Below, piece after piece: positions 1 to 15,220 of a DNA stretch of 64,000 bases (positions are counted from its first letter, which is position 1; every line of letters begins with the position of its first letter). Below the pieces are notes generated by a model. The model had not been told where the DNA came from, ran no database searches, and was given only the letters and a program-made list of their open reading frames with translations. The DNA is from Pseudoxanthomonas sp. F37 (GTDB lineage Bacteria > Pseudomonadota > Gammaproteobacteria > Xanthomonadales > Xanthomonadaceae), in NCBI RefSeq assembly GCF_022965755.1, contig NZ_CP095187.1:2790001-2854000 (forward strand), read 5' to 3'. Position numbers and translations under genes: made by a program.

Positions 1-2285
1 ACGACGCGGCCAGCCTGATCCGTCCGGCCAACCTGCGCGGACTGCCACCGGACAACACGCTGGTGCTGGTCAACGGCAAGCGCTTCCACCGTTCGGCGGT
101 GATCACCTTCCTCGGCCACGGCCTGTCCGACGGCTCGCAGGGCCCCGATCTTTCCGTCTTCCCGTCGCTCGCGCTGGAACAGGTGGAAGTGCTGCGTGAT
201 GGCGCGGCCGCGCAGTACGGTTCCGATGCCATCGCCGGCGTCATCAACTTCGGCTTGAAGAAGATCAGCGAAGGCGGGGCATTCGAAGCCTTCGCCGGCC
301 AGTATTACGAAGGCGACGGCTTCACTACCCAGTACTCCGCGCAGATCGGTCTGCCGCTCACGGCGCGCGGCTATGCGACGCTGACCGCCGAATGGCGCCA
401 GGCGGACGACACCTCGCGCAGCGTGCAGCGCAACGACGCCGCCGCGGCGATCGCCGCCGGGTATCCGGGCGTGCCGGTGCCGGCGCAGATCTGGGGCTCG
501 CCGAAGGTCGACGATGACCTGAAGTTCGTCGCCAACCTCGGTATCAGCGGCGACAGCGTGGACGTGTACCTGTTCGGCAACTACGCCCAGCGCGAAGTCG
601 ATGGCGGCTTCTACTTCCGCGACCCGACCGCGCGCTCGGGCGTCTACTCCAACGACGGCGGGGCGACGCTGCTGATCGGCGACACCACCGGCGCCGGGGG
701 TTGCCCGACCATCGCCCTGCGCGACGGCGCCGGCAACCTGATTCCGTATAGCACCGTGAGCGCCGCGGTCGCGGCCCTGCCTTCGAACTGCTTCACTTTC
801 CTCTCCACCCTGCCCGGGGGCTTCACGCCCCGCTTCGGTGGCAGCCTGGAAGACATGTCCGTGGTCGGCGGCGTGAAGGGCACCTGGGGCAATGCCTGGC
901 ACTGGGATGCCAGCGTCACCTACGGCCGCAACGACATCGACTTCGTCATCTACAACACGGTCAACGCCTCGCTGGGCGCGGCGCAGCCCGCGGGCCTGCG
1001 CTTCAGTCCCGGCGGCAACACCCAGACCGAGAAAGGCGTGAACTTCGACGTCGGTCGTGACATCGAGACATCGTTCACGGCGCAGCCGGTGCGTCTGTCG
1101 GCCGGCGCGGAGTGGCGGGAGGAAAGCTTCGAAGTGAAGGCCGGCGATGCGGCTTCGACCGGCATCGGTCCGCTGACCGAACAAGGCTTCGCGCTGGGCT
1201 CGAACGGCTTCAACGGCTTCAACCCGCGCACCGCCGGTGAATGGGACCGCAAGAACTGGGCCGTCTACCTCGACATGGAAGCGCAGTTCACCGAGCAGTG
1301 GTTGCTGGCCGCCGCGATCCGCCACGAGGACTTCGATGACTTCGGCAGCACCACCAACGGCAAGCTGACGGCGCGTTTCGACGTCTCCGACACCTTCGCC
1401 CTGCGCGGCGCCTACAACACGGGCTTCCGCGCGCCCACGCCCGGGCAGGCGAACATCAGCCAGATCAGCACGGCGTTCAACGGCAGCGTGCTGGAGGACA
1501 TCGCCACGCTGCCGCCCACCAATCCCATCGCCATCCTGAAAGGCTCCCGCCCGCTGACCCCGGAAGAGTCGAAGAACCTCTCCCTGGGCATGGTGTGGAG
1601 CAGCGGCGACTGGCTGGTCACGCTGGACGGCTACCGCATCGAGGTGGAAGACCGCATCGCACTCAGCACCAGCTTCGCGCTGACGCCCGAAGAGCGCGAC
1701 GCCCTGGTCGACTCCGGCAATCCGGAAGCCGCGTCGTTGAGTTCGGTCACCTACTTCGGCAACGCCTTCGATACCACCACGACCGGCGTCGACCTGGTGG
1801 CCAGCGTGGAGACGGACCACTTCGGCGGCACGACCACCTATTCGCTCGCGGCGAACTGGAACAAGACCGAGGTCGACCGCTACGACCCGGACTTCATCGA
1901 CGAGGCCCGCGTCTACAAGATCGAGGAATCGCTGCCGAAGACCAAGGGCTACTTCAGCGTCAACCACAAGCGGGAGGTCTTCCACGCCAACCTCCGCCTG
2001 GGCTACTACGGCTCCTGGTACGAGGACCACCTGGACAGCGGCGCGATCACCGTGGAAGACGGTGGCCTGCCGATCTACGAGGACAGCACGGTCATCGTGG
2101 ATGCCGAAGTCGGCTGGACGTTCGCTTCCGGTCTGTACGTCAACGTCGGCGCACAGAACCTGTTCGACGAAACCCCGGACGACAATCCCTGGGGCGCGGC
2201 GGTCGCCGGTGCGGCCTACCCGGTGCACTCGCCCTATGGCTTCAACGGGGGTTTCTACTACGCCCGCGTGGGCTGGAAGTTCTGA
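1..2285 (+). CDS. TonB-dependent outer-membrane receptor, 5' end outside the window
   Basis: The frame is open from the first bases of the window to a TGA at 2283-2285, so about 760 codons of the C-terminal part are visible. The first visible residues lie inside the plug domain (LVLVNGKR, then LEQVEVLRDGAAAQYGSDAIAGVINF, which is typical of plug domains). The rest is a long beta-barrel rich in aromatic and acidic residues, ending in a terminal aromatic strand (YARVGWKF). Such receptors move a ligand across the outer membrane using energy from TonB-ExbBD. The signal peptide, TonB box and upstream context are outside the window, so no substrate can be named. An ATG at 63 is inside the plug and is not a real start. 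A strong hairpin follows the stop. Confidence 0.93.
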   Translation, partial: DAASLIRPANLRGLPPDNTLVLVNGKRFHRSAVITFLGHGLSDGSQGPDLSVFPSLALEQVEVLRDGAAAQYGSDAIAGVINFGLKKISEGGAFEAFAGQYYEGDGFTTQYSAQIGLPLTARGYATLTAEWRQADDTSRSVQRNDAAAAIAAGYPGVPVPAQIWGSPKVDDDLKFVANLGISGDSVDVYLFGNYAQREVDGGFYFRDPTARSGVYSNDGGATLLIGDTTGAGGCPTIALRDGAGNLIPYSTVSAAVAALPSNCFTFLSTLPGGFTPRFGGSLEDMSVVGGVKGTWGNAWHWDASVTYGRNDIDFVIYNTVNASLGAAQPAGLRFSPGGNTQTEKGVNFDVGRDIETSFTAQPVRLSAGAEWREESFEVKAGDAASTGIGPLTEQGFALGSNGFNGFNPRTAGEWDRKNWAVYLDMEAQFTEQWLLAAAIRHEDFDDFGSTTNGKLTARFDVSDTFALRGAYNTGFRAPTPGQANISQISTAFNGSVLEDIATLPPTNPIAILKGSRPLTPEESKNLSLGMVWSSGDWLVTLDGYRIEVEDRIALSTSFALTPEERDALVDSGNPEAASLSSVTYFGNAFDTTTTGVDLVASVETDHFGGTTTYSLAANWNKTEVDRYDPDFIDEARVYKIEESLPKTKGYFSVNHKREVFHANLRLGYYGSWYEDHLDSGAITVEDGGLPIYEDSTVIVDAEVGWTFASGLYVNVGAQNLFDETPDDNPWGAAVAGAAYPVHSPYGFNGGFYYARVGWKF

Positions 2286-2293
2286 TCGCCGCA

Positions 2294-2322
2294 TGCCGGT
2301 GCCCCGACGTCGGGCACCGGCA
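2294..2322. terminator. Hairpin between convergent genes
   Basis: Perfect 11-base arms (TGCCGGTGCCC and its complement) around a 7-base loop lie between the stop of the TonB receptor and the stop of the convergent DUF4130 gene. There is no T tract, so this is a bidirectional hairpin terminator by position only. Confidence 0.55.
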
Positions 2323-2334
2323 CGGCATCCGGAT

Positions 2335-3156
2335 TCACCCGGGCGTGCGCGGGCGTCCGGGAATGCGCCGCCGCGGCCCCTGCGCCTCGCGCTCGTCCAT
2401 GTCGCGCACGCGCCGGCCGGCCTCGCGGACCAGCTCCGGCAGCAGGTGGGTTTCGGGCAGATGCTTCCAGTACTTCTGCGGCATCTCCTGCCGCATCATC
2501 CGCGTATTGAGGCGCGCGGGGTTGAAGATGCTGGCGTAGTAGGTGCGCCACAGCGCATCCTCCGCATCGTCGGCCGGGGCGTCCGAACGCCTGGCGCCCT
2601 CGCCCGCCCACAGCTGCCCGCCATCCCACTGCACGCTGCGGTAGGGCGTGAGAATGGCCCAGCGCATCCCGGCGAAGCGGCGCATGAAGAACGGCGCCAC
2701 GCGATCGACGATGTAGTGGTCCGGTTCGAACCAGGCGATGTAAGCGTCGTCTCGGCCTTCGACCTGGCGGAATCGGACGAACGCCTTCATCTTGTGCGTA
2801 TCGCGACGGACGGCCTGTGCCCAGCGCGTCGCGCGATGCACATCGGCATCGGTGGCGCGATCCAGCAGCGCGCGCTCGCCGTTGCCGATGCGCCACAGCA
2901 ACCGGTACAGCAACGCGTGCCGGCCGGCATCGCGATGGCAGAGCACGGCGGCGGCCAGCGCCATGAAGTCCGCCGGCACGGACAGCCCCCGCCGACGGAC
3001 CGGCTGGTCGGCGACGGTCGCGCTGGCGAGCAGTTCGCCCTGCCCATCCGCCTGCCATTCCACGGCCTCCGGCGGCAGCCCGGCCTCCCAGGCGTGGCGC
3101 GCCTGCGCGCGCCAGGCGTCCAGGTCCCAGGCCGGCATGACGGTGGCGCGGAACAT
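2335..3156 (-). CDS. TIGR03915/DUF4130-type putative DNA repair protein
   Basis: This 273-residue protein (start MFRATVMPAWDLDAW) resembles the DUF4130 family, which almost always sits beside the radical SAM protein encoded just upstream. Conserved stretches include HKMKAFVRFRQV, then WFEPDHYIVDRVAPFFMRRF, and later PQKYWKHLPETHLLPEL near the C-terminus. In many bacteria the same protein continues into a UdgX-like uracil-DNA glycosylase domain; here it stops after the DUF4130 part, with a basic tail. The start is 8 bases after the stop of the radical SAM gene, so the two are co-transcribed. The family is annotated as DNA modification or repair; its reaction is not established. The start was chosen because it is the first Met after the upstream gene ends. 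Confidence 0.85.
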   Translation of the reverse strand: MFRATVMPAWDLDAWRAQARHAWEAGLPPEAVEWQADGQGELLASATVADQPVRRRGLSVPADFMALAAAVLCHRDAGRHALLYRLLWRIGNGERALLDRATDADVHRATRWAQAVRRDTHKMKAFVRFRQVEGRDDAYIAWFEPDHYIVDRVAPFFMRRFAGMRWAILTPYRSVQWDGGQLWAGEGARRSDAPADDAEDALWRTYYASIFNPARLNTRMMRQEMPQKYWKHLPETHLLPELVREAGRRVRDMDEREAQGPRRRIPGRPRTPG

Positions 3157-3164
3157 CGCGCACC

Positions 3165-4415
3165 TCACCCGAACAGATCGGCCTGGCGCGGTGCCGGCGC
3201 CAGGTCGCGGCGCAGGCGTGCCGGATCGTCCAGCCGCTGGCGCGGATGATGGTCCAGCAGTACGACGAAGGGCAGCAGCTTCTGCAGCGGCGCACGCAGG
3301 CGGGCAAGGTCGGCCACGCGCAGCTTGCCCTGCCGGCGCGAATCCACGATGCGCTGGACGTTGCGTGCGCCCAGCCCGGGCACGCGCAGCAGCATCTCGC
3401 GCGGCGCCGTATTGATGTCCACCGGGAAGCGGTCCGGATGGCGCAGCGCCCATGCCAGTTTGGGATCGATGTCCAGGTCCAGCATGCCGCCCTGCCCCGG
3501 GACGTCCTCGACGATTTCCTTCACCTCGAATCCATAGAAGCGCAGCAGCCAATCGGCCTGGTAGAGGCGGTGCTCGCGCAGCAGCGGCGGTGCGCGCAAC
3601 GGCAGCTGGGTGGAGGCGTCGGGGATGGGGCTGAAGGCGGAGTAATACACGCGGCGCATGCGGAACTGACGGTACAGCGCGTCGCTGCTCACCAGGATGG
3701 CACGGTCGTCGGCGGCGTCGGCGCCCACGATCATCTGCGTGCTCTGGCCGGCCGGGGCGAATTTCGGCGGGCGCCGGCGTTTGGGCTGCGACTCCTGTTT
3801 CGTCGGCTTCGCCGCCAGGATCCGCGTGTGCAGCTCGCCCATGGCGGCGCGGATGCCCGGCGCATCCTTCTGCGGCGCCAGCCGCTTCAGGCCCGCCTCG
3901 GTGGGCAGTTCCACGTTGATGCTCAGACGGTCGGCGTAGCGTCCTGCGGCAGCGAGCAGTTCGGGGGAGGCCTCGGGAATGGTCTTGAGGTGGATGTAGC
4001 CGGCGAAGCGATGGTCCTCGCGCAGGCTGCGCGCCACCTCCACCAGCTGTTCCATGGTGTAGTCGCCGTTGCGGATGATGCCGCTGGAGAGGAACAGGCC
4101 TTCGATGTAGTTGCGCTTGTAGAACTCCAGCGTCAGCCGCACCACCTCGGCGGTGGCGAAGCGCGCGCGCGGCACGTTGCTGGAGACGCGGTTGACGCAG
4201 TATGCGCAGTCGTAGATGCAGAAATTGGTCAGCAGGATCTTCAGCAGGGATACGCAGCGCCCGTCCGGCGTGTACGAATGGCAGATGCCCATCCCCTCGG
4301 TACTGCCGATGCCGCCCTTGCCCAGCGAATGCCGCTTGCCCGCGCCGCTGGACGCGCACGAGGCATCGTACTTGGCCGCATCGGCCAGGATCGCCAGCTT
4401 GTCTTTCAGTTGCAT
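3165..4415 (-). CDS. Putative DNA modification/repair radical SAM protein (TIGR03916-like)
   Basis: This 416-residue radical SAM protein starts MQLKDKLAILADAAKYDASC. The [4Fe-4S]/SAM cluster motif C-x3-C-x2-C is visible in TNFCIYDCAYCVNR at about residue 70. The C-terminal third carries a helix-hairpin-helix DNA-binding element (PREMLLRVPGLGARNVQRIV), consistent with acting on DNA. It is the first gene of a two-gene unit with the DUF4130 protein. The pair is conserved across many bacteria and is assigned to DNA modification or repair by association only. The substrate is unknown. Identification of the family is firm; function is not. Confidence 0.92.
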   Translation of the reverse strand: MQLKDKLAILADAAKYDASCASSGAGKRHSLGKGGIGSTEGMGICHSYTPDGRCVSLLKILLTNFCIYDCAYCVNRVSSNVPRARFATAEVVRLTLEFYKRNYIEGLFLSSGIIRNGDYTMEQLVEVARSLREDHRFAGYIHLKTIPEASPELLAAAGRYADRLSINVELPTEAGLKRLAPQKDAPGIRAAMGELHTRILAAKPTKQESQPKRRRPPKFAPAGQSTQMIVGADAADDRAILVSSDALYRQFRMRRVYYSAFSPIPDASTQLPLRAPPLLREHRLYQADWLLRFYGFEVKEIVEDVPGQGGMLDLDIDPKLAWALRHPDRFPVDINTAPREMLLRVPGLGARNVQRIVDSRRQGKLRVADLARLRAPLQKLLPFVVLLDHHPRQRLDDPARLRRDLAPAPRQADLFG

Positions 4416-4554: not shown

Positions 4555-5337
4555 TCAGAAGTCGAAGCGCGCCGCGATGGAGATCGGCACCGAGACGCGC
4601 TTGCCCGTGTCGTTGATGGATCCCAATCCCAGCCCGCCGATGGCGCTGTCGTCGCCCTCCAGGTCGGCGACATAGCGCACGCCGGCCTGCGCAGTGATGC
4701 TGAAGGCCTCGCTGACCGGGATCAGCACGCCCACGTCCACGCCGGCGGTGGCCGCCCACTTCTTCTCGGTGAACGGCGCGTTGGCGATGGTGATGGCGGC
4801 ATCGGGTATCTCGAACGTCGCGCGGATGTCGTCGGTCTGGGTGGCGCCCAGGCGGCCGGCGACGAACGGACGCGCCGAACCGGGCTGCATGAAGTAGTAG
4901 CGGTAGCCGGCTTCCAGGCTGAGCGCCTTGTAATCGCTGAAGGTGCCGTAGACCGGAAGCTCGGTATTGAGCGCCGGCACGAAAGCGACGCCGACGCGCA
5001 CCGTGCCCGGGTCGGCTTCGGTGCGGCGCACCTGGCCGAAAACCTCGGCGCGATCGCTCAGCCCGTAGGAGAACTCCAGACCGTAGGTGAAAGCCTGGTC
5101 GTAGATGTCCTCATGGCTGCGCGGCTGGATGCGCAACTCGGCGCTGACGCCGGCCAGGTCGGGATTCAGCGGCCCCAGGTCGGGCACGGGCGCCACCGCG
5201 CCGTCATGCACGTCGCCGCTGATGGGCGTGTCCGCGCCACCGAACAGCGACATCGAGAACTTGCCTTGTTCCGGGCCTGCCGCAAACGCCGGAGCGGAAA
5301 CGGCAAACAGCATCAAGCCAGCCAGCCTTGTGTTCAT
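4555..5337 (-). CDS. Exported outer-membrane beta-barrel protein
   Basis: This 260-residue protein starts at MNTRLAGLMLF, which begins a clear signal peptide cut after APAFA. An upstream in-frame Met at 5385 would bury that signal peptide and was rejected. The mature part alternates aromatic and polar residues in strands of about ten residues, and ends in the classic outer-membrane signature (SIAARFDF, terminal Phe). It looks like an eight- to ten-strand barrel of the OmpA/OmpW/opacity type. No enzymatic motif is seen. An inverted repeat (GAAAACAC...GTGTTTTC, 5436-5461) lies about 100 bases upstream and might be an operator. The function is unknown. Confidence 0.75.
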   Translation of the reverse strand: MNTRLAGLMLFAVSAPAFAAGPEQGKFSMSLFGGADTPISGDVHDGAVAPVPDLGPLNPDLAGVSAELRIQPRSHEDIYDQAFTYGLEFSYGLSDRAEVFGQVRRTEADPGTVRVGVAFVPALNTELPVYGTFSDYKALSLEAGYRYYFMQPGSARPFVAGRLGATQTDDIRATFEIPDAAITIANAPFTEKKWAATAGVDVGVLIPVSEAFSITAQAGVRYVADLEGDDSAIGGLGLGSINDTGKRVSVPISIAARFDF

Positions 5338-5667
5338 GGTGATGGTATCCAGAGGTGATGGGTGGAGTTCCGCGGCGACATGCACGCGGCGTTTTCCCTA
5401 CGCGACATCGCGCCGCCTGGATTCAACCGGATGCGGAAAACACAACACACGCAGTGTTTTCACGCGCCATCGACGTGCATTAACAGGCATGCGTGGAAGC
5501 GGGACATTGCGCATGCGCGTATCGCGCCGCATGACGGGTGGCGATCAGGGCCACGTGCGCTGCGCTTCCGACAGGGCAGCACGGTGCAGCCGCGAGGTGC
5601 GCGATGAAACCCGGCGCATTCCTGCGCCGGGACGCCGGGCGCGCGCGACCCGCGGCCGGGCGAAGGC
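5338..5667. other. Gene-free stretch with two inverted repeats
   Basis: I see no credible gene here. It holds the promoter region of the minus-strand barrel gene. There is an 8-10-8 inverted repeat at 5436-5461 (GAAAACAC/GTGTTTTC) in locally AT-rich DNA. A second hairpin at 5610-5631 has 9-base arms (CCCGGCGCA/TGCGCCGGG) and a 4-base loop, just ahead of the PH-domain gene. Neither matches an operator I can name. Confidence 0.4.
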
Positions 5668-6272: not shown

Positions 6273-6941
6273 CTACAGCTTGAACAGCGGTTGCAGCCGT
6301 TGCGCCAGCCAGCCCGGGAACCGCAGCGGCGCGTCCAGCGCGGACACGCAGATGCAGGCGGTGCCGGGCACGGTCACCGGCTGGTGCTCGACGCCGCTGT
6401 CGAGATCGGCGATGTCGCCGGGCGCGAACTGGCCCAGCGCATCGTGGTAGGCGCCGCGCAGCACCTGGGTCAGCTCGGTGCCGCCGTGGCTGTGCACCGG
6501 CATGCTGCGGCCGGGGCCGATCTTCAGCATCAGCAGGGTGCCGCTGCGGGTGCCCGCTGCGCGGATGCAGTGCACGCCCGGCGCCATCCAGCGCCACTTC
6601 AGCGCGCGGTACGACGCGCCGAAGTACGGGTGCAGGGGGGTGGGCAGGCGGTCGTCGTCCTCGTAGGGCGCGCCCCGGGCGGCCGCGATGGGGGCCGGCG
6701 GCAGCGGTGCGTCCAGCTGTTCCAGCATGCAGGCACGCAGGTCGGCCAGGCGGGACGACGACAGCGCCGGCTGCTGGTGCTCCACCAGCTGGCCGCCGAT
6801 GCGTTCGGCCTCGTCCACGCGCGCGCGGCAGTGCGCGCAGGTCTCCAGATGGGTGGCGGCCACGACGGCCATCTCCACGGCCAGCGCGCCGGCCGCGTAG
6901 CTGACCACGGTGGAGGGGTCGAGATGATGGTGCGGGTTCAC
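6273..6941 (-). CDS. chrR: ChrR-family zinc anti-sigma factor
   Basis: This 222-residue protein starts at a GTG (VNPHHHLDP). The N-terminal zinc anti-sigma domain carries all four ligand positions known from Rhodobacter sphaeroides ChrR: His6, His31, Cys35 and Cys38 (HLETCAHC). The C-terminal cupin keeps the second zinc site (His150, His152, Glu156 in VHSHGGTE, and His186). ChrR binds its ECF sigma factor and releases it on singlet oxygen or organic hydroperoxide stress. The start overlaps the sigma stop by four bases (GTGA), so translation is coupled, as in the classic rpoE-chrR operon. With both domains complete, it should be a functional sensor. Confidence 0.95.
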   Translation of the reverse strand: MNPHHHLDPSTVVSYAAGALAVEMAVVAATHLETCAHCRARVDEAERIGGQLVEHQQPALSSSRLADLRACMLEQLDAPLPPAPIAAARGAPYEDDDRLPTPLHPYFGASYRALKWRWMAPGVHCIRAAGTRSGTLLMLKIGPGRSMPVHSHGGTELTQVLRGAYHDALGQFAPGDIADLDSGVEHQPVTVPGTACICVSALDAPLRFPGWLAQRLQPLFKL

Positions 6942-7564
6942 GGCTGACCTCGTACTTGGCCCTGCAGGCGCAGGAACGCGCGCCGCAGGTGCGACTTCAC
7001 CGTACCCAGCGGCATCTGCAGCTCGTCGGCGATTTCCTGGTGGCTCTTGGCTTCGAAGTAGGACATGCGCATCAGCCGCGCCTGCACGGCCGGCAGGTCT
7101 TCGATGCGGCGCTGCAGGTGCACGTGCTCGGCGTAGTCCTCGGCCGAGGTGAACGGTCGCGCCAGTTCCTCGTCGCTGGCGGGCGCGGCTTCCTCGAGCA
7201 TCTGTACCCAGCCCGGCTCGCGGCGGATGCGGTCGATGTGCAGGTTGCGCCCGATCCGGAACAGCCAGGTGGAGACCGCACCCTGCTGCGGGTCGTACAT
7301 GGTGGCGCGCTGCCACAGGCGCAGCAGGGCTTCCTGGGCCAGTTCCTCGGCCACGGCTTCGGGGCTGCCCAGGCCGCGCAGGTACAGGCACAGGCGCGGC
7401 ATGAAGTGGTCGTACAGGCGCATGAACGCGGCACGGTCGCGCGCGCGCGCCACCGCCAGCATGTCGGCCGTCCAGTCGTGGGCGTCGCGCGTGAGGGGCG
7501 TTGGCGTGGACACCGGGGGTGCGGCCCGAAGGGGCGGCGGTCTCCTTGTGAAGTCGGTGGGCAT
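6938..7564 (-). CDS. ECF sigma factor of the ChrR-partnered (ECF11) group
   Basis: This 208-residue ECF sigma factor shows region 2 (AFMRLYDHFMPRLCLYLRGLG, then AEELAQEALLRLWQRA and a GRNLHIDRIRRE segment) and region 4 (MRMSYFEAKSHQEIADELQMPLGTVKSHLRRA, split here only for description). It has a proline-rich N-terminal extension of about 30 residues. It directs RNA polymerase to its own operon and to target genes once ChrR lets go. The start MPTDFTRR was chosen because it lies about 30 bases downstream of the predicted transcription start. It is divergent from the fatty-acid operon, which is probably its main local target. Confidence 0.94.
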   Translation of the reverse strand: MPTDFTRRPPPLRAAPPVSTPTPLTRDAHDWTADMLAVARARDRAAFMRLYDHFMPRLCLYLRGLGSPEAVAEELAQEALLRLWQRATMYDPQQGAVSTWLFRIGRNLHIDRIRREPGWVQMLEEAAPASDEELARPFTSAEDYAEHVHLQRRIEDLPAVQARLMRMSYFEAKSHQEIADELQMPLGTVKSHLRRAFLRLQGQVRGQP

Positions 7565-7601: not shown

Positions 7602-7628
7602 CTACGAAGATGACCGGGGTTCGGATGC
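7602..7628 (-). promoter_or_regulatory. Predicted ECF11-type promoter of the sigma-chrR operon
   Basis: On the minus strand GCATCC (7628-7623), an 18-base spacer and TAG (7604-7602) lie about 40 bases upstream of the sigma start. This is close to the TGATCC-N18-TAA type known for Rhodobacter RpoE. The same pattern occurs twice more in the neighbourhood, which supports autoregulation. Confidence 0.6.
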
Positions 7629-7650
7629 AGCGCCCCGCGCGCCGCCGGAT

Positions 7651-7677
7651 GCATCCGCGGGACGCCCGCCTGCGTAC
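7651..7677 (+). promoter_or_regulatory. Predicted ECF11-type promoter of the fatty-acid operon
   Basis: GCATCC (7651-7656), an 18-base spacer and TAC (7675-7677) lie upstream of the first gene of the divergent operon, leaving about 20 bases of leader with a GGAG before ATG 7706. The spacing is identical to that of the sigma-chrR promoter on the other strand. Confidence 0.6.
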
Positions 7678-7705
7678 AGGGGGCTCCTGCCGCCCGGAGC
7701 CGCCC

Positions 7706-8485
7706 ATGCCCCGCCCAACCTTGCGCTTGCTGGCCGTGCTGCTGTCGACGACGCCGCCCGCCTTCGCCGGTACCGATGTCCTCCGCCAGGAAGCCGTCGC
7801 CTACGCCCGCAAGGGCGATGCGGTGATCTACCGCGAGTCCCACTGGCGCTACCGCCAGGACGGGGTGGCGCGGCGCCTGGTGCTCTACCGCTGCCCCGAC
7901 GGGCGCGCGTTCGCCCGCAAGACCGTGATCGAACGGCCTGCCGCGCAGGCGCCCGACTTCGACTTCGAAGATGCGCGCGACGGCTATCGCGAGGGCGTAC
8001 GGACCGGCCCCGGTGGGCGCGTGGTCTACGTCAGGGAAGCCGGCGCCGCCCGTCCGCAGGAGCGCGCCCTGGCGACGCCGCCCGGCGCCGTCATCGACGC
8101 GGGTTTCGATGCCAGCGTGCGCCAGCACTGGGACGCGCTGCGGGCGGGGCGCGAGGTCACCCAGCCCTTCCTGTTGCCCAGCCGCTTCGCGTTCGTGCCG
8201 GTCAGGCTGGACCCCGGCCCCGCCGTGCGCTGGAACGGCGTGCCGGCCCAGCGCCTGTCGATGAAGCTGGACCGCTGGTATGCCTTCGTCGCACCGACGA
8301 TGCAGCTGACGTACGCCAGTCAGGACCAGCGCCTGCTGGAGTTCGCCGGCATCGCGACCATCCGCGATGACGAAGGCCGCCACCAGGACGTGCGCATCGT
8401 GTTCCCGCAGCCGGCCGCGCCCGCCGATGCGCGCGCGCTCCAGGCCGCACTGGCGACGCCGCTGGTGCGGCAGTGCCGGGGTTGA
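7706..8485 (+). CDS. Exported protein of unknown function, first gene of the ChrR-linked operon
   Basis: This 259-residue protein has a signal peptide (MPRPTLRLLAVLLSTTPPAFA). The mature part is soluble and mostly beta, with recurring motifs such as YRESHWRYRQDG and LVLYRCPDGRAFARK, suggesting a periplasmic domain that may bind a lipid or a protein. I do not recognise a named family. A GGAG lies eight bases before the ATG. The predicted sigma promoter is just upstream, so the gene should be induced with the lipid-modification genes that follow. A periplasmic role in the same stress response is inferred from position only. Confidence 0.8.
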   Translation: MPRPTLRLLAVLLSTTPPAFAGTDVLRQEAVAYARKGDAVIYRESHWRYRQDGVARRLVLYRCPDGRAFARKTVIERPAAQAPDFDFEDARDGYREGVRTGPGGRVVYVREAGAARPQERALATPPGAVIDAGFDASVRQHWDALRAGREVTQPFLLPSRFAFVPVRLDPGPAVRWNGVPAQRLSMKLDRWYAFVAPTMQLTYASQDQRLLEFAGIATIRDDEGRHQDVRIVFPQPAAPADARALQAALATPLVRQCRG

Positions 8486-8496
8486 GCAGCCTTCAC

Positions 8497-8523
8497 GCAT
8501 CCAATACCCGCGCCGCGCCGTAG
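8497..8523 (+). promoter_or_regulatory. Second predicted ECF11-type promoter, before the desaturase
   Basis: GCATCC (8497-8502), an 18-base spacer and TAG (8521-8523) form a third copy of the pattern seen upstream of the sigma gene and of the operon. It sits so close to ATG 8526 that a transcript from it would start at or beyond that codon, which would favour ATG 8553 as the translation start. Confidence 0.5.
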
Positions 8524-8525
8524 TG

Positions 8526-9503
8526 ATGGACGACGCAACCGAGACCTCCGCGATGCCGGCCAGCGATTCCTCCCCCTCCACGCCGGTCCACCATGCCGTG
8601 TCCATCCTGCGCCGGTGGTTCGACACCCAGGCCCACGGCGACGACAGCGGACCGCCGGACCGCATCGACTGGCTGCGCGTGGTGCCTTTCATCGGCCTGC
8701 ACCTGGCATGCGTCGCCGTGCTCTGGGTGGGGGTGTCGCCCATCGCGGTGGCCGTGGCGGTGGCGCTGTACGCGGTGCGGATGTTCGCCATCACCGGCTT
8801 CTACCACCGCTACTTCTCGCACCGCACGTTCCGCACCTCGCGCGTGCTGCAGTTCGTGTTCGCGCTGATCGGCGCCTCCAGCGTGCAGCGCGGACCGCTG
8901 TGGTGGGCCGCGCACCATCGCAACCACCACCGCCACGCGGACACCGCCGCCGATCCGCATTCGCCTAACCAGCGCGGATTCTGGTGGAGCCATGCGGGCT
9001 GGTTCCTGACCCGGGAAGGCTTCCGCACGGACTGGGCGCGCATCCCCGACCTGGCGCGCTACCCGGAGCTGCGCTGGCTGGACCGCTACGACACGGTGGT
9101 GCCGGCGCTGCTGGCCGCCGCCCTGTACGGCCTTGGCGCGCTGCTGAAACGCACGTCCCCGCAGTTGGGGACCGACGGTCCGCAGATGCTGGTGTGGGGC
9201 TTCTTCATCTCCACCGTGGTGCTGTTCCATGCCACGGTCACCATCAATTCGCTGGCGCACCGTTTCGGCCGCCGCCGCTTCGACACGCGCGACGACAGCC
9301 GCAACAATCTCTGGCTGGCCCTGCTGACCTTCGGCGAGGGCTGGCACAACAACCATCACTTCTTCCCGGGCACCGCGCGCCAGGGCTTCCGCTGGTGGGA
9401 AATCGACCTGACCTGGTACGGCCTGCGCGCGCTGGCGCTGCTCGGGCTGGTGCGCGACCTCAAGCCCGTGCCCGCGTGGGTGCTGGCCAAGGCGAGGCGC
9501 TGA
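8526..9503 (+). CDS. Membrane fatty-acid desaturase (acyl-CoA/acyl-lipid type)
   Basis: This 325-residue integral membrane di-iron desaturase has all three histidine boxes: HRYFSH (94-99), HRNHH (131-135) and HNNHH (274-278), plus the conserved NSLAH. Hydrophobic segments lie at about residues 50-90, 105-125, 190-210 and 220-240. It introduces a double bond into fatty acyl chains using O2 and an electron donor. In a ChrR regulon it could act like UfaD, the desaturase of furan-fatty-acid synthesis, but ordinary delta-9 activity is equally possible from sequence. The start could be ATG 8526 or ATG 8553; a predicted sigma promoter ends at 8523. Confidence 0.93.
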   Translation: MDDATETSAMPASDSSPSTPVHHAVSILRRWFDTQAHGDDSGPPDRIDWLRVVPFIGLHLACVAVLWVGVSPIAVAVAVALYAVRMFAITGFYHRYFSHRTFRTSRVLQFVFALIGASSVQRGPLWWAAHHRNHHRHADTAADPHSPNQRGFWWSHAGWFLTREGFRTDWARIPDLARYPELRWLDRYDTVVPALLAAALYGLGALLKRTSPQLGTDGPQMLVWGFFISTVVLFHATVTINSLAHRFGRRRFDTRDDSRNNLWLALLTFGEGWHNNHHFFPGTARQGFRWWEIDLTWYGLRALALLGLVRDLKPVPAWVLAKARR

Positions 9504-9505
9504 AC

Positions 9506-10789
9506 ATGCGCATCGCGGTCATCGGATCCGGCATCGCAGGCCTGGCCTCGGCGTGGTGGCTGTCGCCGCGGCACGAGGTGGTGCTGTTCGAAGCCAACGA
9601 CTACCTGGGCGGACACACGCATACCCACACCGTCGAACAGGCCGGCCGCCAGTACCGCATCGACAGCGGCTTCATCGTGTTCAACCCGGACCACTACCCG
9701 CTGCTGTGCGGACTGTTCGACGAACTCGGCGTGGCATCGCAGCCGACCACGATGAGTTTCTCCGTGCACAGCGAGCGCAGCGGCCTGGAGTACAACGCGA
9801 CCTCGCTGGACACGCTGTTCTGCCAGCGACGCAACCTGGTGTCGCCGCGCTTCTGGGGCATGCTGCGCGACCTGGCGCGCTTCTACCGGGAAGCGCCGGC
9901 GCTGCTGGCAGGCGACGATACCGGTCCGACGCTGGGCGACTATCTGCGGGCCGGCGGCTATGGCGAGGCCTTTCGCGACGAGCACCTGGTGCCGATGGCG
10001 TCCGCGCTGTGGTCGTCGCCGCCGCAGGGCATCCTGGCGTTCCCGGCGCGCTACCTGGTGCAGTTCATGGCCAACCACCACATGCTGACGCTGGGCACCC
10101 GCCCGCCGTGGCGGGTGGTGACCGGCGGCTCGGCGACGTACGTGCAGGCGCTGCGCCGTCGCTGGCGCGTGCAGGAGCGGTTGTCCACGCCCGTGCTGGC
10201 GGTACGGCGCGATGCCGATGGTGTCGAACTCGATACGCTGCACGGCCGCGAACGCTTCGACCAGGTGGTGATGGCCTGCCACAGCGACGATGCGCTGCGG
10301 CTGCTGCACGACGCCGACGAACGCGAGCGCGGCGTCCTCGGCGCGATCCGTTACCAGTCCAACGACACCGTGCTGCACACCGACGCGCGCCTGCTGCCGC
10401 AGCGCCGCAAGGCCTGGGCCGCATGGAACGCGCACGTGCCGCGCGACCCGTCGGCGCCGTGCACGGTCAGTTACTGCATGAACCTGCTGCAGGGCCTGGA
10501 CTCGCCCGAGCCGTTCGTGGTCACGCTCAACCGCAGCCATGCCATCGACCCGGCCCGCATCCTCCGCCGCATGCACTACCGGCATCCGGTCTACGACCAC
10601 GCCATGGTCGCCGCGCAGCGGCGCCGGCAGGAGATCCAGGGGCACCGGCGCACGTGGTTCGCGGGCGCCTACTGGGGCTGGGGCTTCCACGAGGACGGCA
10701 TCCGCAGTGCGCGCGAGGTGGTCGATGCCATCGCCGCATTGCCCGTCGGCGCGCCCGCGCCGGGTGCCATCGAGGCGGTGGGCGCGTGA
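9506..10789 (+). CDS. FAD-dependent amine-oxidase-like oxidoreductase
   Basis: This 427-residue flavoprotein begins with an FAD-binding Rossmann motif (MRIAVIGSGIAGLASAWWLS, then an acidic FEAN and GGHTHTH). It continues as a NAD(P)-binding-8/amine-oxidase-like protein. It starts two bases after the desaturase stop. In many proteobacteria this family is followed by DUF1365 and a CFA-type methyltransferase, as here, and it belongs to the core of the Rhodobacter singlet-oxygen regulon. An oxidase step on methylated unsaturated acyl chains is an attractive idea, but the sequence alone does not show the substrate. Confidence 0.93.
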   Translation: MRIAVIGSGIAGLASAWWLSPRHEVVLFEANDYLGGHTHTHTVEQAGRQYRIDSGFIVFNPDHYPLLCGLFDELGVASQPTTMSFSVHSERSGLEYNATSLDTLFCQRRNLVSPRFWGMLRDLARFYREAPALLAGDDTGPTLGDYLRAGGYGEAFRDEHLVPMASALWSSPPQGILAFPARYLVQFMANHHMLTLGTRPPWRVVTGGSATYVQALRRRWRVQERLSTPVLAVRRDADGVELDTLHGRERFDQVVMACHSDDALRLLHDADERERGVLGAIRYQSNDTVLHTDARLLPQRRKAWAAWNAHVPRDPSAPCTVSYCMNLLQGLDSPEPFVVTLNRSHAIDPARILRRMHYRHPVYDHAMVAAQRRRQEIQGHRRTWFAGAYWGWGFHEDGIRSAREVVDAIAALPVGAPAPGAIEAVGA

Positions 10790-11562
10790 ACGCCCCCCTG
10801 GCAAGCGCCGTGTACGAGGGCTGGGTGCGGCACCGCCGGCATTCGCCGCGCCCGCATGCGTTCCGCTACCGCATGGCGCAGCTCTACCTGGACCTGGACG
10901 AAATCGATACCGTGTTCGACCGCCGCTGGCTGTGGTCGGTGGACCGCCGCAACCTGGCCGAATTCCGTCGCAGCGATTACCTGGTGCCGCACGACCGGCC
11001 GCTGGCCGAGGCCGTGCGCGACCGCGTGGAGCGCGCGGTGGGCCATCGTCCGCAAGGCCCGGTCCGCCTGCTGACGCACCTGCGCTACGGCGGCTACGTG
11101 TTCAACCCGGTCAGCTTCTACTACTGCTTCCAGCCGGACGGCACCACCCTGGACGCCGTGCTGGCCGAGATCACCAACACGCCCTGGCGCGAGCGGCACA
11201 GCTACGTGCTGCCGGTGCGCGACGGCGCGCCGTACGGCGACGGCTGGGAATGGGGCTTCGACAAGGTGTTCCATGTGTCGCCGTTCCTGCCGATGGACTG
11301 CGCCTACCGCTGGCGCTTCACCCTGCCCGAGGACGCGCTGCGCGTGCACATGCAGGTCGACCGCGAAGGACGGCGCGCCTTCGACGCCACCCTCACCCTG
11401 CTGCGCCGGCCGCTGGACGGCCGTTCACTGGCGCGCGTGCTGTGGCGCTACCCGCTGATGACGGCGCAGGTGATGACCGGCATCCACTGGCAGGCGCTGC
11501 GGCTGTGGCTGAAGCGCACGCCCGTCCACGACCATCCTTCCCTTGCCCGCGAGACCCCATGA
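10786..11562 (+). CDS. DUF1365 family protein
   Basis: This 258-residue protein starts at a GTG overlapping the stop of the FAD gene (GTGA). The DUF1365 signature is clear: YEGWVRHRRHSPRPHAFRY at the N-terminus, then LLTHLRYGGYVFNPVSFYYC, and PFLPMDCAYRW later. Family members are found almost only between an FAD oxidoreductase and a CFA-type methyltransferase, so they should act in the same lipid pathway. No catalytic role is known to me. The tight overlap on both sides indicates coupled translation and fixed stoichiometry with its neighbours. Confidence 0.95.
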   Translation: MNAPLASAVYEGWVRHRRHSPRPHAFRYRMAQLYLDLDEIDTVFDRRWLWSVDRRNLAEFRRSDYLVPHDRPLAEAVRDRVERAVGHRPQGPVRLLTHLRYGGYVFNPVSFYYCFQPDGTTLDAVLAEITNTPWRERHSYVLPVRDGAPYGDGWEWGFDKVFHVSPFLPMDCAYRWRFTLPEDALRVHMQVDREGRRAFDATLTLLRRPLDGRSLARVLWRYPLMTAQVMTGIHWQALRLWLKRTPVHDHPSLARETP

Positions 11563-12809
11563 ACGAGATCGCCGACGTCACTGCCGTTTCCTCCTACGGG
11601 GCGCTCGATCGCCTGCTGCGCTCGCAGCTGCTGGCGCGCCTGGATGCGCTGGACCACGGCATGCTGGTGGTCCGCGACGCGCTGGGCGAACACCGCTTCG
11701 GCCGCACCGGCCGGGACGCGTTGCCCGCCGTGCACCTGTGGATCGACGATCCGGCGTTCTACCGCGCCGTCGCCGCACAGGGCAGCGTGGGCGCGGGCGA
11801 GGCCTACATCGCCGGCCAGTGGCGATGCGACGACCTGGTCGGCCTGGTGCGCCTGCTGGTGCGCAACCGCGAGCTGCTGGACGGCATGGAAAGCGGCCTG
11901 GCGCGGCTGGGGGGCTGGGCGCTGCGCAGCTGGCATGCGCTGCGACGCAACACGCGCGAAGGCAGCCGCCGCAACATCGCGGCGCACTACGACCTGGGCA
12001 ACGACTTCTTCAAGCTGTTCCTGTCCCCGGACCTGATGTACTCCTCGGCGATGTTCGCTTCCCCGGACGACGACCTGGAAACGGCCTCGTATCGCAAGCT
12101 GGATGCCGTGTGCCGCAAGCTGGCGCTGTCGCCCGACGACCGGGTGATCGAGATCGGCACCGGCTGGGGAGGCTTCGCCCTGCACGCGGCGCGCCACTAC
12201 GGCGCCCACGTCACCACCACCACGATTTCGCGCGAGCAGCATGCGCTGGCCAGCCAGCGGGTCGCGGACGCCGGGCTGCAGGACCGGGTGACCCTGCTGC
12301 TGCAGGACTACCGCGACCTGCAGGGGCAGTACGACAAGCTGGTGTCCATCGAGATGATCGAGGCGATCGGCGCGCAGTACCTGGACACGTTCTTCGGCAA
12401 GCTGGGCAGCCTGCTGCGGCCGGGCGGCCAGGCGTTGCTGCAGGCCATCACCATCGAGGACCATCGCTACGTGCAGGCGCGCGACTCGGTGGACTACATC
12501 AAGCGTTTCGTCTTCCCCGGCAGCTTCATCCCCTCGCTCAACGCCATGTACGGCGCAAAGACCCGCGCCAGCGACCTGCAGGTCGTGCACCAGGAGGACT
12601 TCGGCCTGTCCTACGCGTACACGCTGCGGGCCTGGCGGCGCCGTTTCTTGACACGACTGGCCGACGTACGCGCGCAGGGCTTCGACGAGCGCTTCATCCG
12701 TCTGTGGGAGTTCTACCTGGCCTATTGCGAAGGCGGCTTCCTGGAGCGGTCCATCGGCGTGTCCCACCTGCTGATGGCCCGCCCGGGCCGCCCGCCGGGG
12801 GCCGCATGA
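11559..12809 (+). CDS. Cyclopropane-fatty-acid-synthase-type SAM methyltransferase
   Basis: This 416-residue CFA-family enzyme shows NIAAHYDLGNDFFKLF, the SAM motif VIEIGTGWGGFALHAA and LLLQDYRDL. CFA synthase transfers a methylene group from SAM to a phospholipid double bond. Two residues differ from the E. coli active site as I align it: the cysteine of YSCAYW is serine here (YSSAMF), and the histidine of LLHTIG is glutamine (LLQAIT); the key glutamate is kept (EMIEAIG). That pattern would fit a methyltransferase making methylated rather than cyclopropane chains (UfaM-like), which is inference. The start overlaps the DUF1365 stop (ATGA). Confidence 0.92.
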   Translation: MNEIADVTAVSSYGALDRLLRSQLLARLDALDHGMLVVRDALGEHRFGRTGRDALPAVHLWIDDPAFYRAVAAQGSVGAGEAYIAGQWRCDDLVGLVRLLVRNRELLDGMESGLARLGGWALRSWHALRRNTREGSRRNIAAHYDLGNDFFKLFLSPDLMYSSAMFASPDDDLETASYRKLDAVCRKLALSPDDRVIEIGTGWGGFALHAARHYGAHVTTTTISREQHALASQRVADAGLQDRVTLLLQDYRDLQGQYDKLVSIEMIEAIGAQYLDTFFGKLGSLLRPGGQALLQAITIEDHRYVQARDSVDYIKRFVFPGSFIPSLNAMYGAKTRASDLQVVHQEDFGLSYAYTLRAWRRRFLTRLADVRAQGFDERFIRLWEFYLAYCEGGFLERSIGVSHLLMARPGRPPGAA

Positions 12810-13603
12810 GCCTGTCGCACTCCCTCGGCTGGGTGGCCCTGGTGGCCGCCGCGGTGATGACCCTGGGCTGGCTGTGGCAGCGGCGCCACAAGAATGCGGG
12901 CATCGTCGACGTGCTGTGGTCGGCCTGCGTGGGTGGCAGCGCGGTGCTGCTGGCCGTGCTGGGCGACGGCGCCTGGCAGGCGCGCGCCACCCTGGCCGTG
13001 CTGGGCGGCGCGTGGGGCGCACGGCTGGCGCTGCACCTGTGGCACCGGGTGCGCAGCGAGCCGGAAGACGGCCGTTACCGCTACCTGCGCGAGCACTGGC
13101 GGGGCCACCAGGGCAAGTTTTTCCTGTTCTTCATGGCGCAGGCGCTGCTGGTGGTGCTGTTCGCCCTGCCGTTCGCCGCGGCCGCACGCAGCCCCGTGGA
13201 CACGGCGTGGCCCTGGATCGTGCTGGCGGTGGCGATCTGGGCGGGCAGCGTAGTCGGCGAAGCGATCGCCGACCGCCAGCTGGCACGCTTCCGCGCCGAT
13301 CCCGCCCACCGTGGAAAGACGTGCCGCGATGGGCTGTGGCGGTACTCGCGCCACCCCAACTACTTCTTCGAATGGCTGCACTGGTTCGCCTACGTCGTGC
13401 TGGCCATCGGTTCGCCCTGGGCGTGGCTGTCGTGGTGCGGGCCGGTGGTGATGTACGTGTTCCTGCGCTGGATCAGCGGCATTCCCTATACCGAGGCGCA
13501 GGCGCTGCGCACCCGCGGCGAGGAGTACCGCGAATACCAGCGCACCACGCCGATGCTGTTCCCCTGGTTTCCCAAACCCGCCACCAAGGAGGCGACACGA
13601 TGA
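12806..13603 (+). CDS. DUF1295 membrane protein (steroid 5-alpha-reductase fold)
   Basis: This 265-residue multi-pass membrane protein has hydrophobic segments at about 8-25, 35-55, 110-130, 135-155 and 200-225. The DUF1295 signature near the C-terminus reads GLWRYSRHPNYFFEWLHW, followed by RGEEYREYQRTTPMLFPWFP. The fold is shared with steroid 5-alpha reductases and isoprenylcysteine methyltransferases, which act on membrane lipids. It overlaps the preceding stop by four bases (ATGA). A reductase or transferase acting on the modified acyl chain is plausible; no substrate is proven. Confidence 0.93.
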   Translation: MSLSHSLGWVALVAAAVMTLGWLWQRRHKNAGIVDVLWSACVGGSAVLLAVLGDGAWQARATLAVLGGAWGARLALHLWHRVRSEPEDGRYRYLREHWRGHQGKFFLFFMAQALLVVLFALPFAAAARSPVDTAWPWIVLAVAIWAGSVVGEAIADRQLARFRADPAHRGKTCRDGLWRYSRHPNYFFEWLHWFAYVVLAIGSPWAWLSWCGPVVMYVFLRWISGIPYTEAQALRTRGEEYREYQRTTPMLFPWFPKPATKEATR

Positions 13604-14682
13604 ACGCGATGGTGGAAGAACTGGCCGCCGACCGGGCCGCCCCCGGCCTGCTGGGCCTGGCCGAACGCGGCCTGTTGCCCGATGCGCTGATCCGCGCCGG
13701 CATCCGCCGGCTGTGCGCGCAGCGGCTGCGCGACGAGAGTGCGGGCGGGCAGCAGGCGCAGTCGGCGCTGCTGGCGCAGCGCCTGCGCGCATTGCGCCAG
13801 GGCGCGCTGGCCGTGCATACCGACGCCGCCAATCGGCAGCATTACGAACTGCCGGCGGAATTCTTCCTGCGCTGCCTGGGCCACCGGCTCAAGTACAGCA
13901 GCTGTTATTACCCCACCGGCGCGGAGACGCTGGACCAGGCCGAGGACGCGATGCTGGCACTGTACGGCGAGCGCGCCGCACTGGCCGACGGCCAGGACAT
14001 CCTGGAGCTGGGCTGCGGCTGGGGCTCGCTGACGCTGTGGATGGCCCAGCGCTACCCGAATGCGCGCATCACCGCGGTCTCCAACTCGCACTCCCAGCGC
14101 ACGTTCATCGAGGCGCGCTGCGCCGAGCGCGGCCTGCGCAACGTGCGCATCATCACCTGCGACGTGAACCAGCTGCAGCTCGAACCGCAGGCCTTCGACC
14201 GCTGCGTGTCGGTGGAGATGTTCGAACACGTCAGCAACCACGCCGCGCTGATGCGCCGCATCCATGACGCACTGCGTCCGGGCGGGGCACTGTTCGTGCA
14301 CATCTTCGTCCACCGCCATCTGATGTACCCGTTCGAAACGCAGGGCGAGGACAACTGGATGGGCCGGCATTTCTTCACCGGCGGCATGATGCCGTCGGCC
14401 GACCTGCTGCTGTTCTTCCAGGACCACCTGCACCTGCAGGAACGCTGGCTGCTGGACGGCACGCACTACCAGCGCACCGCCAACCACTGGCTGGCCAACC
14501 ACGATGCGCGCCGCGACGAGGTGATGGCCGTGCTGCGCGCCGCCTACGGCGATGCGGCGCCGTTGTGGAACCAGCGCTGGCGGATGTTCTGGATGGCCTG
14601 CGCCGAGCTGTTCGGCTATCGCGACGGGCAGGAATGGCTGGTGGCCCACTATCGCTTCCAGCGCCCGGCGCGGGAGCACTGA
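13600..14682 (+). CDS. Second CFA-like SAM-dependent methyltransferase
   Basis: This 360-residue enzyme is shorter than its neighbour and only distantly similar. It shows HYELPAEFFLRCLG, KYSSCYY, the SAM motif ILELGCGWGSLTLWMA and the conserved EMFEHVSNH. It belongs to the CFA/coclaurine-N-methyltransferase-like branch. A second methylation, as done by FufM on furan fatty acids in Rhodopseudomonas, is one candidate role. An AAGGAGG lies just before the start, which overlaps the DUF1295 stop (ATGA). It ends one base before the lipocalin start. Confidence 0.9.
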   Translation: MNAMVEELAADRAAPGLLGLAERGLLPDALIRAGIRRLCAQRLRDESAGGQQAQSALLAQRLRALRQGALAVHTDAANRQHYELPAEFFLRCLGHRLKYSSCYYPTGAETLDQAEDAMLALYGERAALADGQDILELGCGWGSLTLWMAQRYPNARITAVSNSHSQRTFIEARCAERGLRNVRIITCDVNQLQLEPQAFDRCVSVEMFEHVSNHAALMRRIHDALRPGGALFVHIFVHRHLMYPFETQGEDNWMGRHFFTGGMMPSADLLLFFQDHLHLQERWLLDGTHYQRTANHWLANHDARRDEVMAVLRAAYGDAAPLWNQRWRMFWMACAELFGYRDGQEWLVAHYRFQRPAREH

Positions 14683-14683
14683 C

Positions 14684-15220
14684 ATGCGTACCCTGCCCTT
14701 CGTGCTGCTCGCGCTGATGGTCGCCACCAGCACCGCCGCCTGCCGCTCCGGCAACGTCAAGCCGTCCATCCCCACGGCCGCACCGGTGGACGTGGACCGC
14801 TTCATGGGCGACTGGTACGTGATCGCGCACATCCCCTCGTTCCCCGAGCGCGAAGCCTACGCCGCCGTGGAGTCGTACGCCAAGCTGCCCGACGGCCGCA
14901 TCCGGACCACGTTCCGCTTCCGCAAGGGGGCGCTGGACGGACCGGAGAAAACGATGCATCCGGTCGGCACGGTCACCCCGGGCTCGGGCGGCGCGGTGTG
15001 GGGCATGCAGTTCGTCTGGCCGATCCAGGCCGAGTACGTCATCGCGTACGTGGACGCCGACTACCAGCAGACGATCGTGGGACGCAGCAAGCGCGACTAT
15101 GTGTGGCTGATGGCGCGCACGCCGCGGATATCCGAGGCCGACTACGAGGCACGGATCCGGCAGATCCAGGCATTGGGCTACGACGTGTCGAAGATCCGGC
15201 GCGTGCCGCACGCACCGTAA
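14684..15220 (+). CDS. Lipocalin-family lipoprotein (Blc-like)
   Basis: This 178-residue protein starts MRTLPFVLL with a signal peptide ending at a cysteine (STAAC), a weak but plausible lipobox. The lipocalin G-x-W motif follows at GDWYVIAHIPSF, and the C-terminal part keeps the strands and the helix of bacterial lipocalins such as Blc. These outer-membrane lipoproteins bind fatty acids or lysophospholipids. As the last gene of the lipid operon it may carry or repair modified acyl chains at the outer membrane, which is inferred from context. Confidence 0.88.
   Translation: MRTLPFVLLALMVATSTAACRSGNVKPSIPTAAPVDVDRFMGDWYVIAHIPSFPEREAYAAVESYAKLPDGRIRTTFRFRKGALDGPEKTMHPVGTVTPGSGGAVWGMQFVWPIQAEYVIAYVDADYQQTIVGRSKRDYVWLMARTPRISEADYEARIRQIQALGYDVSKIRRVPHAP

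Follow-up and report, generated by a model that had tools for sequence, protein, structure and literature searches.

GCATCC-N16-CGTA elements as predicted promoters of a ChrR-linked sigma factor gene and a furan-fatty-acid-like lipid operon in Pseudoxanthomonas

The ECF11 promoter type, its autoregulation, a regulon of furan fatty acid and photolyase genes, and sigma/ChrR control of an operon orthologous to the one considered here are already known. In Rhodobacter sphaeroides, the core sigma-E/ChrR regulon includes furan fatty acid genes, which also play a part in the turnover of ChrR (PMC6852236). The methylated furan fatty acids of this species are made by UfaM, the FAD-binding enzyme UfaD and the DUF1365 protein UfaO; ufaM (RSP2144) lies apart from ufaD-ufaO (RSP1091-1090), whereas in R. 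palustris the genes adjoin in the order UfaD-UfaO-UfaM (RPA2571-2569) (PMC7380195). The rpoE2-chrR promoter of Shewanella oneidensis, the start of which has been mapped, is TGATCC-N16-CGTA, and the predicted Shewanella regulon contains a photolyase, a photolyase-related protein and cfa (PMC4336711). In Stenotrophomonas maltophilia, deletion of chrR raised expression of smlt2375-smlt2367 and of the sigma gene, and this was reverted in a chrR-rpoEc double deletion; the evidence comes from RNA-seq done once and qRT-PCR for some of the genes, with which a sigma promoter fusion agrees (PMC11832516). The same report found that the sigma promoter was not induced by menadione or ceftazidime, and labelled the operon membrane lipid modification; the word "furan" does not occur in its text (PMC11832516).

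The window analyzed here, a stretch of 64,000 nucleotides (64 kb) from Pseudoxanthomonas sp. F37, carries an arrangement like that of S. maltophilia rpoEc-chrR-chrA and smlt2375-smlt2367: an orthologous sigma-chrR pair (6273-7564, minus strand) and, divergent from it, an eight-gene run (7706-15220, plus strand), the counterpart of which is sigma- and ChrR-dependent in S. maltophilia. According to the published description, the operon contents are also alike, with a hypothetical protein, a desaturase, an oxidoreductase, two CFA synthases and a lipocalin, but S. maltophilia has nine operon genes rather than eight and a chrA gene after chrR, where the window has none next to its chrR. Since sigma/ChrR control of the orthologous operon in S. 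maltophilia has been published, we do not regard the core finding as new.

The first gene of the pair (6938-7564, minus) encodes an ECF sigma factor that is 97% identical to its counterpart in Pseudoxanthomonas mexicana DSM 17121 and whose best solved relative is the RpoE of 2q1z/2z2s; it matched R. sphaeroides RpoE (2q1z_A) with an E-value of 4.6e-30, the next solved structure following at 4e-13. The recognition helix of its region 4.2 contains H192 and R195. Directly after it lies the gene for a ChrR anti-sigma factor (6273-6941, minus) with a zinc-binding HxxxCxxC part and a cupin part, which scored 161.9 bits against TIGR02451 (cut-off 124.5) and also matched PF12973 (Cupin_7), and residues 3-211 of which align with 2z2s_B, including the HxxxCxxC motif and the cupin histidines. 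Against the equivalog model NF051881 (StressantisigmaChrR) the window ChrR scored 157.6 bits, below the curated cut-off of 300. The nearest solved relatives of both proteins are thus the RpoE-ChrR pair of R. sphaeroides, an ECF11 system, and both the sigma gene with its directly following zinc-and-cupin chrR gene and the nearest solved sigma agree with ECF11. The ECF11 promoter, TGATCC-N16-CGTA, is represented here by GCATCC with the spacing and CGTA retained; in our judgement this counts as an ECF11 variant, because the motif correlates with the group and does not define it.

The original prediction placed three GCATCC-N18-TA elements around the sigma-chrR pair, and all three are exact matches at the places and in the directions it gave. 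The first predicted promoter element (7603-7628, minus) lies 38 bp upstream of the sigma ATG (7564), the second (7651-7676, plus) 29 bp upstream of the Orf1 start (7706) at the head of the lipid operon, and the third (8497-8522, plus) within the operon, directly upstream of the desaturase. The 18-base spacer before TA held, while the −10 is better described as CGTA than as TA[CG], and in this strict form, GCATCC-N16-CGTA, the window contains exactly these three elements. The loose form has four matches in the window, the fourth of which (7205-7230, minus) we rejected as a promoter; it lies inside the sigma coding sequence and ends in GGTA. That the elements are chance matches in GC-rich DNA could be argued from the 55 occurrences of the loose pattern in the genome and the four in the window, but control spacers within N8-N24 gave no matches in the 64 kb window apart from one at N15 and two at N19. 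In 300 first-order Markov simulations of the window, moreover, the strict pattern occurred 0.08 times on average and at most once, so that three within 1 kb never arose. These results, together with the conservation of the sites despite diverged spacers described below, bear out the expectation that three such elements in under 1 kb are unlikely to be accidental, and we consider chance an extremely improbable explanation.

The motif, its positions and its conservation can be read directly from related loci. A set of the best 80 of 464 relatives by sigma scan (1.507 Mb), drawn from Pseudoxanthomonas, Stenotrophomonas, Luteimonas, Lysobacter, Thermomonas, Arenimonas, Rhodanobacter, Dyella and Dokdonella as well as from MAGs, contained 248 matches to GCATCC-N16-CGTA, with at least one in each of the 80 loci; the matches are not 248 independent events, because the loci are kin. 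Over the same best 80 of 464 loci, the 16 other spacers (8-15 and 17-24) gave 0-9 matches each, the 15 other leading dinucleotides before ATCC-N16-CGTA gave 0-7 (TGATCC, 0), and single changes at each of the ten fixed positions gave 0-15; the spacers vary between these loci while the ten fixed bases persist. The proposed likeness to the Rhodobacter RpoE promoter stands for the architecture; in its first two bases this lineage truly departs from TGATCC. Exact sites also precede the sigma gene in 19 of the 21 loci of a second set (L031-L051, 20 family loci plus the window's own), the exceptions being L051, with GGATCC at the same spacing, and L047, with CCATCC and one base more.

Several loci in these surveys carried sites elsewhere or an unusual setting. 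Fourteen Stenotrophomonas loci among L090-L122 have an extra exact site at about 18000-18801 (minus; e.g., L101:18114), roughly 8 kb beyond the sigma gene and on the opposite strand. Six others (L134-L138 and L140) keep sigma-chrR and its site in a fetched stretch without the lipid operon, and have another site about 3 kb downstream, at 12984-13415 (minus). L088, a MAG labelled Chloroflexota, has a Lysobacterales-like sigma-chrR locus arranged as in L085 and L086, likely a binning error.

Counting a site as upstream of a gene when it fell between -15 and 150 bp of a start extrapolated from the window's proteins, we found one before sigma in 77 of the best 80 of 464 loci, before Orf1 in 36 of the 39 loci in this set that have Orf1, and before the desaturase in 61 of the 63 that have a desaturase. 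The association was weaker for the lipocalin (7/61) and the FAD-dependent oxidoreductase (3/65) in the same best 80 of 464 loci, some lipocalin genes apart from the operon having their own site (e.g., L127 and L132), and no site was found in this interval before ChrR (0/80), DUF1365 (0/64), CFA1 (0/63), DUF1295 (0/59) or CFA2 (0/62). This distribution bears on whether the elements might instead be targets of a different ECF sigma factor, or of some DNA-binding regulator, and lie near sigma-chrR incidentally. The genome does hold 11 matches to the sigma protein, itself counted, but the site before the sigma gene itself in 77 of the best 80 of 464 loci, an architecture the same as that of Shewanella and other ChrR-linked promoters, and the sigma- and ChrR-dependence of the orthologous S. 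maltophilia genes (PMC11832516) make this very unlikely. The conserved positions across the order and the S. maltophilia chrR deletion data (PMC11832516) likewise uphold the proposed tie between the lipid operon and the ChrR-controlled sigma factor.

The third element bears on how many of the sites work. A MEME box was described before rpoEc and before smlt2375, which we liken to the window's divergent pair by position, not by letters; the available sections of that report name boxes at these two places only and no third promoter (PMC11832516). It could accordingly be proposed that only the two divergent sites work, that the Orf1 promoter by itself serves the operon, and that the desaturase site is a relic of an Orf1-less arrangement. 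The site is indeed present in 23 of the 25 loci in which no Orf1 was found before the desaturase (among the best 80 of 464), some of them with the operon downstream of chrR, and can on that account be read as an older promoter; the S. maltophilia authors also treat the cluster as one operon (PMC11832516). Against a relic, the exact ten bases and the spacer are kept in all 38 loci where Orf1 precedes the desaturase (among the best 80 of 464), and in the S. maltophilia chrR mutant the desaturase transcript exceeds that of the preceding gene (TPM 2088 vs. 744; PMC11832516). The transcript argument is weak, because a comparable spread is seen among the later genes (533 to 3352) with no exact site before CFA2; an internal promoter before CFA2, at which these published values might hint, was itself rejected, the exact site being absent in 62 of 62 loci (among the best 80 of 464). 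We judge a relic unlikely. Because the site is kept with or without Orf1, we favor reading the third element as a promoter that belongs to the desaturase itself; in some lineages Orf1 with a promoter of its own would then sit between the desaturase promoter and sigma.

This placement also affects the desaturase start. Among 19 relatives hand-picked from the 63 desaturases, all 19 have an in-frame start 26-33 bp past the promoter −10 (ATG in 18, TTG in L082), three of them with an additional ATG at 4-6 bp. In the window, ATG 8526 lies only 3 bp past the −10, ahead of the expected transcription start, while ATG 8553 corresponds to the 26-33 bp start of the relatives. On this comparison we propose 8553 rather than 8526 as the start of the desaturase.

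The eight genes of the operon begin with Orf1 (7706-8485, plus), an exported protein with a predicted LolA/RseB/DUF1849-like fold that matches no Pfam or NCBIfam family, and the fatty acid desaturase (proposed 8553-9503, plus; PF00487). They continue on the same strand with an FAD-dependent oxidoreductase (9506-10789; PF01593 and PF13450), UfaD-like by comparison with PMC7380195, a UfaO-like DUF1365 protein (10786-11562; PF07103, 291.4 bits), a CFA-synthase-family methyltransferase (CFA1, 11559-12809; PF02353) that is a candidate UfaM, a DUF1295 membrane protein (12806-13603; PF06966), a second CFA-synthase-family methyltransferase (CFA2, 13600-14682; PF02353), and finally a Blc-like lipocalin lipoprotein (14684-15220; PF08212, 137.8 bits), which scored 66.3 bits against NF007786, below the cut-off of 267. 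The FAD oxidoreductase, DUF1365 protein and CFA-family methyltransferase adjoin the sigma factor locus and, unlike their R. sphaeroides counterparts, one another, and because their order matches UfaD-UfaO-UfaM of R. palustris (PMC7380195) we read the operon as a furan-fatty-acid-like pathway, an inference from protein families and gene order rather than from direct alignment with the Ufa proteins. The "membrane lipid modification" operon under sigma control in Stenotrophomonas may, by the same reading, be a furan-fatty-acid-like pathway; our literature search, which covered subscription papers thinly, did not find this reading of the Stenotrophomonas operon or a promoter of the desaturase's own.

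Taking these observations together, we hold with high confidence that an ECF11-type sigma/ChrR pair uses all three elements as promoters, for its own autoregulation and for a furan-fatty-acid-like lipid operon with two start points. The sigma factor encoded alongside would read all three elements while ChrR holds it in check; the element at 7603-7628 would drive sigma-chrR itself, that at 7651-7676 Orf1 and the lipid operon in the divergent direction, and that at 8497-8522 a second start of the operon at the desaturase. By analogy with Rhodobacter, ChrR would release the sigma factor on singlet oxygen or peroxides; both this signal and the lipid product we infer, and the available sections of the S. 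maltophilia report do not describe activation by singlet oxygen (PMC11832516). Release would yield more sigma factor together with the UfaD-, UfaO- and UfaM-like enzymes, the desaturase, the lipocalin and the exported Orf1 and, elsewhere on the chromosome, a photolyase, GTP cyclohydrolase I, an MsrP-like protein and a second lipocalin.

The window shares its spacing and CGTA with Shewanella but not the TGATCC, and the Shewanella cfa gene is in an operon with phrB and not divergent from sigma; R. sphaeroides likewise has a TGATCC-like −35 where the window has GCATCC (PMC4336711). Among 121 ChrR loci of other groups (one of them, L178, from the same order), 108 have a sigma gene, preceded by a TG-type site in 79 (TGATCC, TGATCT or something close to these, in a few cases with 15 or 17 bases of spacer), by another dinucleotide in 11 and by none in 18; the remaining 13, among L183-L203, have ChrR-family genes but no corresponding sigma ORF within the stretch retrieved. 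For an alignment of the sigma factors, an ORF was found in 223 of 236 loci and the 13 others were omitted; L329, L333 and L334 had been removed as duplicates, the Lysobacterales set comprised the 80 named loci (best 80 of 464) plus L047-L051, and L178 and a poorly aligned Ser195 row, L371, were grouped with the others. Dinucleotide counts leave out 27 Leu195 sigmas, one other and three from Lysobacterales that lack xxATC[CT]-N16-CGTA in the 420 bases upstream.

On this basis, Leu195, the residue that R. sphaeroides RpoE has at the position of the window's R195, is accompanied by TG in 87 of the 95 sigma promoters that have a site and in 65 of the 69 divergent ones. In the Lysobacterales set (including the best 80 of 464), Arg195 is accompanied by GC in 80 of 82 sigma promoters (GA and GG once each) and in all 58 divergent promoters, and sigmas with Phe, Asn, Thr, Ala or Met195 have TG in 7 of 11 sigma promoters (otherwise TC, CC or CG) and in none of 8 divergent ones. 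Family f37, from another class of the same phylum, includes loci with Phe, Asn or Thr at 195 and varying first two −35 bases (L376-L383), and its relatives with Leu195 (L384-L404) have TG before sigma in 19 of 21. Residues 190 (Lys in 223 of 223) and 191 (Ser in 217 of 223) match those that read bases unchanged here, and residue 192 was rejected as the determinant, since sigmas with Ser or Gly192 and Leu195 still have TG in 5 of 6.

Residue 195 aligns with SigW R175 and hence with E. coli sigma-E R176, and we take M. tuberculosis SigH R186 to occupy the same position. SigW R175 and sigma-E R176 contact the −35 G and are apposed to the −36 base (PMC6713349), and in SigH it is the first G of the −35 that R186 contacts (PMC6411747). 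With TGATCC and GCATCC set in the register of the SigW element, as their equal spacing suggests, the Arg-read G would lie one base further in, so the Arg contact cannot simply be transferred to GCATCC. Two loci also speak against a role of residue 195: L191 has Leu195 yet GCATCC before sigma, with TGATCC at another place in the locus, and in L147, whose residue 195 is Lys, the sigma promoter has AAATCC and the divergent one GCATCC. A quick tree built from 84 rows (including 48 of the 95 that have Leu195 and a site, and 20 of the 85 from Lysobacterales) gave three independent pairs for a basic residue 195 against a leading G, two going the same way and none the opposite, and three for Leu195 against TG, on average 1.5 the same way and 0.1 the opposite, numbers at which significance is unreachable in either comparison.

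That the order uses GCATCC where ChrR-linked sigmas elsewhere mostly use TGATCC, with an accompanying change from Leu to Arg195, looks new; a literature search with thin coverage of subscription papers did not find GCATCC as a lineage-wide change with a matching sigma residue. We lean somewhat toward the view that the ChrR-controlled sigma of Lysobacterales switched its −35 from TGATCC to GCATCC mainly through Leu to Arg195, its regulon promoters being rewritten in step; on this view Leu would pair with TG and Arg with a leading G, and other residues would loosen the choice of the first two bases. If so, ChrR-linked sigmas would form a natural series in which to follow the recoding of an entire sigma regulon. 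Two orthologous regulons with −35 elements differing in two bases and one candidate residue offer a simple test of sigma/promoter co-change.

With ten fixed bases and a fixed spacer, the motif is searchable for the stress regulon of an order with soil, industrial and clinical species. The genome of this organism (3.97 Mb in a single contig) contains 18 strict sites, or 4.5 per Mb. Outside the window there are 15, nine of which are correctly oriented and 24-170 bp upstream of a gene start; four fall in called coding sequence with no gene start behind them, and two have no assignment. The nine genes include those for GTP cyclohydrolase I (folE), photolyase, a photolyase-related DPRP, an Oxidored_molyb protein that we read as MsrP-like, a fasciclin protein, an HlyD-type adaptor and a lipocalin. 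The codon-based gene caller called the window's intergenic region coding (a long spurious minus-strand ORF) and placed the photolyase site inside a called upstream ORF; gene assignments were verified by tblastn with clustered proteins. The one-mismatch site GAATCC-N16-CGTA in the window (5399-5424, minus), upstream of an outer-membrane-protein-like gene (4555-5385, minus; weak Pfam match), is a candidate promoter only; in another Pseudoxanthomonas genome (L292) the homologue has an exact site 140 bp upstream, and the gene is possibly a further regulon member.

We compared seven Pseudoxanthomonas genomes, taking all strict sites from three (G000, this organism, G444 and G446) and part of them from four (G443, G445, G447 and G448), so that the counts are lower bounds. 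Sites precede photolyase in at least seven of the seven genomes, folE in at least six, the msrP-like gene in at least five, lipocalin genes in at least six, fasciclin in at least three, HlyD in at least three and DPRP in at least two; the original prediction of a searchable motif, with photolyase-type genes among its targets, was thus borne out. Ahead of photolyase, folE and msrP, the spacers have diverged widely, this organism and its close kin G447 excepted. One lipocalin gene and the fasciclin gene have similar spacers in most of the seven genomes, so their sites count for less.

Site density separated genomes with and without the sigma gene weakly. With 21 of 149 family genomes scored as sigma-positive (a sigma match of at least 49% identity), strict sites averaged 3.76 per Mb in these and 2.64 in the 128 others (one-sided Mann-Whitney p = 0.0011, without correction for kinship; p = 0.0033 in a smaller version with 92 of the 149). 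Genomes of the same genus without the sigma gene reach 4.4 sites per Mb, compared with 4.5 in this one, which means that many matches must be accidental. A reversed-pattern control (1-3 matches per genome, 0-23 in another scan) was rejected as background, because it flatters the motif: sigma-less family genomes still have 1-24 forward matches. We set the count-based test of sigma presence or absence aside as weak and relied on position and conservation instead. One lipocalin gene has a spacer between GCATCC and CGTA that, unlike that of other sites, is almost constant (TGATGACTAGCGTGTC or nearly so in L211, L413, L426, L280 and L255), and a second constraint may lie there.
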